Origin: Luteimonas sp. MC1572
GTDB taxonomy: Bacteria > Pseudomonadota > Gammaproteobacteria > Xanthomonadales > Xanthomonadaceae
Direction of reading: 5' to 3'
Assembly: GCF_016615815.1 (NCBI RefSeq)
Contig: NZ_CP067112.1
Location: forward strand, 2,914,001-2,978,000
Length of the DNA stretch: 64,000 nucleotides
Shown: piece by piece, positions 25,143 to 28,240 of the stretch
How the letters are laid out: every line of letters starts with the position of its first letter
How positions within the stretch are numbered: the stretch's first letter is position 1
Program-made: the position numbers and the translations under genes
The notes under the pieces: generated by a model
What the model was told of the DNA's origin: nothing
Seen by the model: only the letters and a program-made list of their open reading frames with translations
Database searches by the model: none

Positions 25143-27026
25143 TTAAGCCACGCGCCGGCGACGCTGCAGGTGCACCAGCAACAGCGAGATCGCCGCCGGA
25201 GTCATGCCCGGGATGCGCTGCGCCTGGCCGATGGTGCCAGGCCGCACCTGCTCCAGTTTCTGGCGCAGTTCCGACGACAGGCCGCGGACCACGGCGTAGT
25301 CGAACGCGTGGTCGATCGTGGTGTCCTCGCTGCGCCGCTGGCGCGCGATCTCCTCGCGCTGGCGCTCGAGGTAGCCGGAATACTTGGTCTCGATCTCGAC
25401 CTGCTCGGCCACGGCCGGATCGGCCACTGCCGGTCCGAATGCCGGCACCGTGACCAGTCGCGCGTAGTCGAGCTCGGGCCTGCGCAGCAGGTCGAGCGCG
25501 CTGGATTCGCGGCTCAGTTCGATGCCGAGCGTGGCCACCGCCTCGCGCCCGGTCGCGTTGTTGGGCGACGCGCGCAGCGCGCCCAGGCGCGCGGTCTCGG
25601 CCGCCACCGCATCGCGCTTGCGTGCGAACGCATCCCAGCGCGCGTCGTCGACCAGGCCCAGGTCGCGGCCGATCGCGGTGAGCCGCAGGTCGGCGTTGTC
25701 CTCGCGCAGCTGCAGGCGGTATTCGGCGCGCGAGGTGAACATGCGGTACGGCTCGACCGTGCCGTGGGTGATGAGATCGTCGACCAGGACGCCGATGTAG
25801 GCCTGGTCGCGGCGCGGCGACCAGCCTTCATGGCCCTGCACCAGGCGCGCGGCGTTGGCGCCGGCCAGCAGGCCCTGCGCGGCGGCTTCTTCGTAGCCGG
25901 TGGTGCCGTTGATCTGGCCGGCGAAGAACAGCCCTGCCACGGCCTTGGTTTCCAGCGTGGCCTTGAGCCCGCGCGGATCGAAGAAGTCGTATTCGATCGC
26001 GTAGCCCGGGCGGGTGATGTGCGCGCGCCCGAAGCCCTGCACCGAACGCACCAGCGCAAGCTGCACGTCGAACGGCAGCGAGGTGGAGATGCCGTTGGGG
26101 TAGATCTCGGCGACATCCAGCCCTTCCGGCTCGACGAACACCTGGTGGCTCGCCTTTTCCGCGAAGCGCACCACCTTGTCCTCGATCGACGGGCAGTAGC
26201 GCGGGCCGGTGCCTTCGATCTGTCCCGAGTACAGGGGAGAACGGTGCAGCGCGCCGCGGATGATGTCGTGCGTGCGCTCCGTGGTCTGGGTGATCCAGCA
26301 CGAGACCTGGCGCGGCTGGTCGGCGTGCGTGCCCATGAACGAAAACACCGGGCGCGGGTCGTCGCCGGGCTGCTCCACCATCACCGAGTAGTCGAGGCTG
26401 CGGCCATCGATGCGCGGCGGCGTGCCGGTCTTCAGCCGATCGACCACGAACGGGCCGTCGCGCAGGCGCGCGGCCAGCGTGGTTGCCGGCGGGTCGCCCA
26501 TGCGGCCGGCGGAGTACTGGGTTTCGCCGACATGGATGCGCCCGGCGAGGAAGGTGCCCGCGGTCAGCACCACCGCCGGCGCATCGAAGCGCAGACCGGT
26601 GTTGGTCACCGCGCCGCGCACGCTGCCGGCTTCGATCACCAGGTCATCGACCGCGGCCTGGAACACGGTGAGGTTGGCCTGCGCTTCCACTGCGCGACGG
26701 ATGAAGGCGCGATACAGCGCACGATCCGCCTGGCAACGCGTTGCGCGCACCGCCGGCCCCTTGGATGCGTTGAGCCGGCGCCACTGGATGCCGGCGGCGT
26801 CGGCGGCGCGCGCCATCACGCCGCCGAGCGCGTCGATCTCGCGCACCAGATGGCCCTTGCCGATGCCGCCGATGGCCGGATTGCAGCTCATCGCGCCGAC
26901 CGTCTCGATGTTGTGTGTCAGCAGCAACGTGCGCGCACCGGCGCGCGCGGCGGCCATCGCGGCTTCGGTGCCGGCGTGGCCACCGCCGATGACGATGACG
27001 TCGTAGCGATGGAAGTCGTGATGCAT
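25143..27026 (-). CDS. mnmG: tRNA uridine-5-carboxymethylaminomethyl modification enzyme MnmG
   Basis: FAD-binding subunit of the MnmE-MnmG complex, which makes (c)mnm5U34 in tRNA anticodons. 627 aa, the normal length. The FAD dinucleotide motif GGGHAG is at residues 14-19, followed by [15 protein letters not shown]. The conserved Cys of [13 protein letters not shown] and the C-terminal helical tRNA/MnmE-binding domain (ending [17 protein letters not shown]) are present. ATG at 27026. Transcription runs away from the small-RNA locus on the opposite strand. Confidence 0.96.
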
Positions 27027-27074: not shown

Positions 27075-27091
27075 TTGGCACGCTACCTGCA
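27075..27091 (+). promoter_or_regulatory. sigma-54 (RpoN) promoter
   Basis: TTGGCACG at 27075-27082 and TGCA at 27088-27091 form the -24/-12 promoter: the invariant GG (27077-27078) and GC (27089-27090) are exactly 10 bases apart. The -24 box is a full TGGCACG match; the -12 box reads CTGCA against TTGCA. No protein gene starts downstream; the structured RNA and terminator do, so the start point is expected near 27101-27103. Confidence 0.7.
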
Positions 27092-27101
27092 TTCTCTTCT
27101 G

Positions 27102-27223
27102 GCGCACCCGGAATGGCCAACGACCCAGGGGGACGGGGCCGGAGATTGGAACAGGGCTGGCCAGGCGCATTCCGGGGGAGCGAAGGGGCCGAACGTCGGG
27201 GGACGTTCGGCCCCGTTTTTTTT
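27102..27223 (+). ncRNA. candidate sigma-54-dependent small RNA
   Basis: About 122 bases from the expected sigma-54 start to a strong terminator, divergent from mnmG. A long-range helix is visible: CCCGGAAT (27107-27114) pairs with ATTCCGGG (27169-27176), extended by GGCCA (27115-27119) with TGGCC (27158-27162) across a one-sided 6-base bulge. The apical 38 bases and the linker to the terminator are G-rich. Six GGA triplets occur in the 122 bases, several of them predicted unpaired, which is reminiscent of CsrA/RsmA-titrating RNAs. A 46-codon frame from ATG 27113 runs through the terminator stem and has no ribosome-binding site, so a peptide is unlikely. Confidence 0.55.
27185..27223 (+). terminator. 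strong Rho-independent terminator
   Basis: A 13-bp perfect stem (GGGGCCGAACGTC at 27185-27197, GACGTTCGGCCCC at 27202-27214), a 4-base loop of G, then G and eight T (27216-27223). The T-run is on the plus strand only, so it ends a rightward transcript, matching the sigma-54 promoter 110 bases upstream. Confidence 0.9.
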
Positions 27224-27243
27224 GGCCGCAGGAACGGGCCGGT

Positions 27244-27433
27244 GGCGCCTTGAAAGGCGCCGACGCCCGGCGGGAGCGGAACAGGGGGGATCCGGGATCC
27301 CCCGCCGGGTGTCGACAATCGTCAGACCCAATTACGTCCTAAAGCGACGCAACCGGTCAGTTGGCCTAGCTTGCGACCACTGCGAGCCCCTTTGCAAGCG
27401 GCAATATGTTTCAAGTTCGCGACACAGGTCGCG
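27244..27433. repeat. hairpin-rich gap between small RNA and lipoprotein gene
   Basis: No gene is seen here. Inverted repeats in order: GGCGCC-TTGAAA-GGCGCC (27244-27261); a compound stem with outer arms 27261-27274 and 27301-27314 enclosing a GGGGGATCC-type palindrome; GCTTGC (from 27368) with GCAAGC (from 27394); and CGCGAC-ACAG-GTCGCG (27418-27433) directly behind the lipoprotein stop, possibly its weak terminator. Bases 27315-27420 are noticeably less GC-rich than the flanks. Confidence 0.45.
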
Positions 27434-28240
27434 TTACGGCGTCTCCGTCAGGACCTCGCGGGTGCTGCGCCGCTCCGTCGCGCTGCGCACTGGCGCCCGG
27501 ACCGCAGGCCGCGACGCGGGGACGGCGGCGCTGCGCTCAACCCTGGCTGGCGACTGCAGGCGCCCGCCCTGGGCCGCCGCAGGCACGGGGCGTTGCTGCC
27601 GTGCCTGCAACGGCGCGGCGCGCTCGACTGGCTGCATGCGCGCGCCCGGCCGCTCCTGTTGCACGACGGGCGTCCGCAGCCTGGCGTCTGGAGCCATCAT
27701 CGACGTGGGTCGCGGATCCCGCTGCAGCGGGCGCTCGCGGGTGCGCGGAGGCGCCCGGTCTGCGGGAGCCGGTGCCCGCAGGCGACCGTCAGATGGCGTG
27801 ATCGTGCGTCCGGGCCGTGATTCCCAGCCGTCGCGGATATGCGGGCGCGCCTGCGACTGGCTCGGCCGCGACGGAATGCCCGTGGACGGCGGATCCGGCC
27901 TGTCCGGACGGCCCTGGTACGGCGGGCGGTATGGCGGGCGATACGGCGGGTAATAGCCGTAACCGGGCCAGCCGTACCATGAGGAACCGCCGTACCACGG
28001 CGAGCCGTAACCACCGTAGTAGCGGCCATAGCCGCCGTAATAGCCGATGCCGACACCGAGCCCGTACGGCGCGCCATACCCGTATCCGCCATAGCCGTCA
28101 TAACCACCACGGCCGTAGCCGCCACCGTGGTAGTAGTCGCCGTAGGCGTCGTATCCGCCACGGCCGCTGTAGCCGTAACCGGTGGCGCAACCGCCCAGCA
28201 CCAGCGCTGCGGCGGCGGCGATAAGGAACTTGCGGATCAT
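27434..28240 (-). CDS. Gly/Tyr-rich lipoprotein
   Basis: Lipoprotein of 268 aa: signal peptide with lipobox LGGC (acylated Cys at residue 18), then about 80 residues dominated by Gly and Tyr in GGY/YGG repeats. Next comes a PPYRPPYRPPY proline-tyrosine run, then a long basic, Arg/Pro/Ala-rich disordered tail. No catalytic domain. Such compositions occur in surface or envelope structural proteins, but no function can be given. Start ATG 28240 has AGGGGAA upstream. Divergent from the threonine-dehydratase-like gene. Confidence 0.7.
   Translation of the reverse strand: MIRKFLIAAAAALVLGGCATGYGYSGRGGYDAYGDYYHGGGYGRGGYDGYGGYGYGAPYGLGVGIGYYGGYGRYYGGYGSPWYGGSSWYGWPGYGYYPPYRPPYRPPYQGRPDRPDPPSTGIPSRPSQSQARPHIRDGWESRPGRTITPSDGRLRAPAPADRAPPRTRERPLQRDPRPTSMMAPDARLRTPVVQQERPGARMQPVERAAPLQARQQRPVPAAAQGGRLQSPARVERSAAVPASRPAVRAPVRSATERRSTREVLTETP

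Follow-up and report, generated by a model that had tools for sequence, protein, structure and literature searches.

Sigma-54-type promoters of the small RNA asX1 and a convergent hairpin as its candidate loop–loop partner

Main

The RNA at positions 27102–27223 (+) of the window, by which we mean the whole 64,000-nt stretch of DNA analysed here, is by covariance-model comparison a member of the catalogued asX1 family (RF02235), and we see roughly an even chance that it is a sigma-54-controlled small RNA (sRNA) acting as one half of a loop–loop RNA pair. Comparison of relatives carries the family membership, the conservation of the promoter, the covarying structures, the strand of the partner and the complementarity of the loops. 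The pair itself is a hypothesis to which these comparisons lend good support. As asX1 is already catalogued, what is new beyond its Rfam entry is the evidence for sigma-54 control across the family and outside it, a convergent partner hairpin with a complementary loop, and the occurrence of asX1-like RNAs outside the family.

The window corresponds to positions 2914001–2978000 of the single contig of a 3.02-Mb genome. The divergent neighbour of asX1 is mnmG (25143–27026, −; Pfam GIDA, 556 bits), and a putative lipoprotein gene (27434–28240, −), recognized from its reading frame and, by inspection, a lipobox, runs convergent with it; this frame is rich in Gly, Tyr and Pro, and no Pfam family matched it. 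Among the matches listed from a pattern scan that returned at least 119 stretches, the mnmG regions closest to that of the window were those of Luteimonas terricola (86.8% nucleotide identity) and L. padinae (86.4%), over ~2.25 kb, which makes the organism probably a Luteimonas; the 80 listed comprise 70 from this order and 10 unrelated ones, which we took to be chance matches.

Identity and structure of asX1

The Rfam model aligns to 27105–27220 over its full length (model positions 1–115 of 115) with 75.2 bits against a gathering score of 70, so that the window RNA agrees with asX1 throughout the model, in sequence as well as in structure. A preliminary description, made from the letters of the window, had not recognized the RNA as one of a described family, which it is. 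What that description observed is confirmed. The stable RNA of about 120 nt that it proposed folds far better than expected by chance: positions 27102–27225 give −69.1 kcal/mol compared with −50.5 kcal/mol (s.d. 3.4) for shuffled sequences (z = −5.5), and none of 200 shuffles matches this value. The RNA start, 27102, is placed by its spacing from the promoter described below. The long internal helix is present, pairing 27102–27115 with 27168–27181, slightly displaced from the 27107–27119 and 27158–27176 first given. The terminator (27185–27223, +) is as described, with 27185–27197 pairing with 27202–27214 (13 bp at 100%) around a GGGG loop (27198–27201), followed by T8 (27216–27223).

Searching 299 genomes of the order with RF02235 gave matches in 75 at E ≤ 0.001, 68 of them over the cut-off, and all 75 fall in the window's family, of which 79 genomes were examined. 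At 74 of the 75 loci mnmG is present, the exception being L023 (genome G282), in which asX1 and its partner lie ~5.6 kb from mnmG. At another locus (L022, genome G225) asX1 is inverted in place, with mnmG downstream in the same direction. Four family genomes have no Rfam asX1 match. In three of them (G245, G280 and G091) a diverged asX1-like RNA lies next to mnmG and retains both the promoter and the core; in the fourth (G247) no asX1 was found on checking, although the partner is kept.

In a sequence-only alignment of asX1 (71 distinct rows), 96.5% of cells are paired and both sides have changed in 21 of 29 pairs, giving a covariation score of 0.445 compared with 0.194 for shuffles and at most 0.098 for slid controls. 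Both stems covary, which supplies the paired changes that the preliminary description proposed to look for among relatives. Mechanical reading frames do run across the RNA in the open-reading-frame list of the window; the covarying stems favour an RNA gene despite them. Among unpaired positions, conservation is greatest in two loops carried on covarying stems, the apical one around GGAACAGGGG and the GGGG loop of the terminator; the terminator-loop columns GGGGGA are kept in 70 of 75 rows. At seven loci of one genus (L060, L063 and L065–L069), the terminator loop is larger and still contains a G-run.

A literature search, whose coverage did not extend to Schmidtke 2012, the paper cited for asX1, encountered no asX1 regulator or target. 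In the available excerpts of two papers, expression of asX1 is detected in X. campestris pv. raphani and the RNA is present in cellular RNA of Xylella fastidiosa, and the same excerpts make no mention of sigma-54, a target or a partner of asX1 (PMC12189769, PMC4652430).

The preliminary description had further suggested, from six GGA triplets, that the RNA titrates RsmA. The Csr/Rsm-titrating RNAs include RsmY/Z and CsrB/C. RsmU is another (PMC7694677), and asX1 resembles such RNAs in being of similar length and in containing several GGA. The six triplets exist, and a csrA homologue was found in all 16 genomes looked at, but the count is not remarkable, because shuffled versions of the RNA average 5.3 (dinucleotide) or 3.7 (mononucleotide), and 13% of the mononucleotide shuffles contain at least six; over the 75 RNAs, the mean of 3.85 GGA stands against ~3.0 in shuffles. 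Unlike the titrating RNAs, asX1 exposes few GGA (a mean of 0.95 fully unpaired per RNA, n = 75) and has little A-N-GGA, which occurs in 14 of the 75 RNAs and nowhere in the window RNA. Moreover, the apical GGA is missing in 12 of 75, where the loop reads UGAACAGGGG (11 RNAs) or GAUACAGGGG (L073). Apart from a slight surplus of GGA, nothing supports titration of RsmA/CsrA by asX1, and we hold it to be very improbable.

Promoter and candidate activators

An exact −24/−12 site, TTGGCACGCTACCTGC, lies at 27075–27090 (+), as first reported, and nowhere else in the 64 kb is TTGGCACG-N4-CTGC matched exactly. Looser matches to this pattern amount to background, because 12 with up to two mismatches are observed in the window against 15.1 expected. 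In all 75 relatives exactly one TGGCA-N7-TGC falls within the 35 nt before the model start, 26–29 nt ahead of it, while most upstream and spacer positions around it vary. Because the RNA model used to collect the loci does not cover the promoter, the conservation of this site is independent evidence. Among 30 distant or diverged hits, made up of 27 loci from outside the family and the three diverged family loci, TGG[CT]A-N7-TGC stands 24–28 nt upstream in 27; two of the remaining three (L351 and L357) keep GG-N10-GC, and the third (L359) has a site further upstream. The retained promoter and the covarying stems bear out the earlier proposal of an RpoN-dependent regulatory RNA, and on these comparative grounds sigma-54 control of asX1 is strongly supported.

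The genome that contains the window encodes RpoN (Sigma54_DBD) and four full-length sigma-54 activators: a PilR-like protein, named by inspection; NtrC, over the NCBIfam cut-off; a protein that lacks a receiver domain; and another response regulator. Across the five asX1-bearing genomes compared by tblastn (G000, G054, G116, G233 and G278), orthologues in every genome were seen for the PilR-like protein and NtrC alone, so the activator would be one of these two if a single one serves all. From this we infer PilR or NtrC as the candidate activator of asX1; a link to nitrogen or carbon status, raised in the preliminary description, is only indirect. No conserved activator site was recognized in the aligned 260 bp upstream, for which half of the rows were inspected. 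The genomes without an Rfam asX1 match, G247 included, also hold rpoN, PilR and NtrC. Co-loss of rpoN with asX1 was considered and rejected, since rpoN is present in 16 of 16 genomes, among them all four family genomes lacking an Rfam asX1 match.

A CRP/Clp-like palindrome, TG[TC]GA-N6-TCACA, was seen upstream of the sigma-54 promoter at 7 of the 75 loci (L002–L005, L007, L008 and L015), 68 nt before the asX1 model start, and CRP-type control may have been added in the clade that carries it.

Qrr, CrcZ and NrsZ are sRNAs that depend on sigma-54. GlmY is a further example (PMC3162934). Like asX1, these four lie behind a −24/−12 promoter; asX1 differs from them in having no Rfam match to such families at gathering score and in its proposed action through a convergent neighbouring RNA. 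A study of Xylella predicted 44 sigma-54 sites, upstream of annotated genes, and neither gidA nor small RNA occurs in the available part of its text (PMC3224663).

A convergent hairpin as proposed partner

A second conserved hairpin, absent from the preliminary description, lies ~30 bp past the asX1 terminator at 27256–27325 (−). We detected it through a second copy of the letters GAACAGGGG, which recurs past the terminator at 73 of 75 loci, inside a long covarying stem; the two misses are the rearranged locus L022, the partner of which is at L295, and L037, at a contig edge. The hairpin matched no Rfam family at gathering score: its best match, truncated and on the minus strand, is a 5′ UTR thermometer with 22.1 bits against 125 (E = 0.00016). 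R1, a covariance model of the partner that we built in this analysis and whose E-values are rough, matches the window hairpin with 77.4 bits.

In alignment A3, which holds 61 distinct rows of 78 for the partner, 96.1% of cells are paired and both sides have changed in 11 of 18 pairs (covariation score 0.373, compared with 0.250 for shuffles and at most 0.132 for slid controls). A motif pattern was used to gather the partner loci, so the invariance of the loop in A3 is partly due to selection. Its strand can be read from the balance of GU and AC oppositions: taken as a minus-strand RNA, the partner shows GU:AC counts of 156:12 in A3 and, reversed, 85:46, and the longer alignment A2 (69 of 77 rows) gives 171:20 against 101:75. 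As a control, the known strand of asX1 has 144:27 and the opposite reading 26:77. This bias indicates that the partner is most likely a minus-strand RNA, read leftwards and convergent with asX1. A plus-strand reading of the hairpin is disfavoured by the same counts.

Alignments show further conserved blocks at 27326–27405 (−), on the way from the partner hairpin to the stop of the lipoprotein frame; CGTC..GACG, GGTCA and TAGCTTGCG..GCAAGC are among them, and they may continue the partner RNA or form its promoter region. In the window the partner would sit in the 3′ region of the lipoprotein gene. In a genome of another family (G055), a Tyr/Gly-rich lipoprotein-like frame is likewise convergent with asX1. 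In another (G080, also outside the family), the partner is followed by another sigma-54 site and its 61-aa frame and then by a minus-strand pepN-like frame, and no lipoprotein is found beyond the partner among the listed frames of at least 130 aa. The partner is thus not bound to the lipoprotein in every genome, and it may be transcribed independently. A second sigma-54 site ~220–260 nt beyond the partner hairpin was also seen at three loci of other families (L361, 3021–3255; L362; and L364), where the small frame that follows is 61–66 aa long and shares an HDLxIEhGRLE-like stretch.

Relatives outside the family

Both RNAs reach beyond the family, to different extents. R1 matches 166 of the 299 genomes, comprising all 79 of the family and 87 of the 220 others of the order. 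R2, a covariance model of asX1 that we also built here and whose E-values are likewise rough, matches 80 of 299, of which 76 are in the family and 4 in other families, so that outside the family the genome-scale search finds the partner in 87 genomes against 4 for asX1. In one of those four (G080), the R1 and R2 matches are adjacent and convergent.

A test of distant loci drew on the 87 out-of-family genomes with a partner match and used 40 loci, 38 from the listed partner matches and two from asX1-model matches (locus L358 was not used). Searching these loci only, R2 matches 27 of the 40 at a rough E ≤ 0.01, and some of the remaining loci show a similar RNA by eye. asX1-like RNAs are not confined to the family that holds all the Rfam matches.

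Complementary apical loops

The apical loop of asX1, GGAACAGGG in the window (27148–27156, +), is complementary to a segment of the partner loop, CCCUGUUCC (27278–27286, −). Across loci, CCCUGUUCC or CCCCUGUUCC stands opposite GGAACAGGG or GGAACAGGGG when both are read as RNA. We noticed this complementarity after searching for the letters of the asX1 loop, and had not predicted it. At all 73 loci the longest perfect complement is at least 9 nt (10 nt in 53, 9 in 19 and 11 in one). Both loops are nearly invariant, with a single register shift: at L073 the asX1 loop is changed and a 9-nt complement is kept in the shifted register. For 26 of the 73 pairs, accessibility-corrected pairing energies range from −8.3 to −15.2 kcal/mol, and in 24 the best site contains ACAGGG. 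Shuffled partners pair as well in only 3 of 780 trials on these 26 pairs, compared with 99 of 780 for shuffled asX1, the latter control being a weak test because a G-rich RNA meets a C-run.

That ease of chance matching between G- and C-rich loops leaves room for a different reading, in which the second hairpin is a structured 3′ end of the neighbouring transcript or a DNA site and the loop match is due to chance or common origin. Part of the motif (GGA/UCC) also forms the apical helix of the partner itself, so its conservation need not mean pairing. Set against this are the positions of the complementary letters, in the apical loops of two hairpins that both covary, and the 9–11-nt run at 73 of 73 loci, one of them with its register shifted. 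Such an explanation by 3′ structure seems to us possible, though on the unlikely side.

Among the 30 distant or diverged hits, the longest complement is 6–11 nt, mostly 6–7, and in 28 of them it lies in the CAGGG loop. The loop core kept by the distant relatives is ACAGGGG or CAGGGG. The promoter and the loop core thus persist at a distance, and the 10-nt match does not. This loss would suit a sigma-54-driven trans-acting sRNA that pairs with mRNAs elsewhere, for which likeness to the neighbouring loop is secondary, as would the genome that keeps the partner with no detected asX1 (G247) and the conservation of the apical and GGGG terminator loops on covarying stems, which is what is expected of seed regions. 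However, such a role would not by itself account for a loop core complementary to the neighbour in every one of the 73 family loci, nor for a complement lying in the same loop in nearly all distant hits, and a search of three genomes with GGAACAGGGG as a target code returned no other conserved target: of 24 sites, those beyond asX1 and its partner appear chance-like by inspection. We consider action on distant mRNAs unlikely, if by no means negligible. Outside an asX1 locus, one minus-strand site (L288, G225:C13:625903-625912) belongs to a predicted hairpin whose loop region contains GGGAACAGGGGCC and which is possibly a further RNA.

The exposed and conserved G-runs of asX1 also bring to mind sX13 (RF02232), another widespread sRNA of the same bacteria with exposed loop runs, which uses C-rich loops and 4G motifs to repress mRNAs (PMC3771888). 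By mimicking G-rich mRNA sites, asX1 could act as a decoy of such C-rich-loop sRNAs. The sX13 loops, which are C-rich whereas those of asX1 are G-rich, resemble the C-run loop of the partner, and sX13, which forms a separate family from asX1, is present in 75 of 79 family genomes, a sample different from that of the asX1 count. Yet accessible pairing between asX1 and sX13 was not above shuffles in the window's genome or in 17 others: in the former, the pairing is equalled by 37 of 100 shuffles of sX13 and by 77 of 100 shuffles of asX1, and in the latter by 4–21 of 40 shuffles of sX13. A decoy role is, in our judgement, improbable. The sX13 model has two matches in G225 (on C14 and C15) and two, side by side, in G237:C2:887772-888135.

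Discussion

In the mechanism that we favour, sigma-54 RNA polymerase would transcribe asX1, which would make the RNA dependent on an AAA+ enhancer-binding activator; PilR or NtrC is the simplest candidate. The exposed apical loop of asX1 would then form a kissing helix with the apical loop, rich in C, of the partner, which would either belong to the lipoprotein transcript, in its 3′ region, or be an independent small RNA. Once the activator fires, asX1 would occupy the partner loop and thereby alter how stable or active the partner is. The pairing in cells, its effect and the identity of the activator are the steps that we infer.

Taken further, the comparisons suggest a conserved two-RNA module of asX1 and an undescribed structured RNA, arranged tail to tail beside mnmG, joined by a kissing loop and present in several families of the order, in which the partner may be a regulator with a C-rich loop that active PilR or NtrC would silence through asX1. 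We offer this fuller picture tentatively, with its chances somewhat below even.

A −24/−12 promoter in every family relative examined points to a class of regulator for asX1, and the partner hairpin is the first concrete candidate for its target. If the pair is real, it would be a case in which neighbouring convergent RNAs are conserved for contact between their loops and not for overlap, unlike classical antisense pairs.
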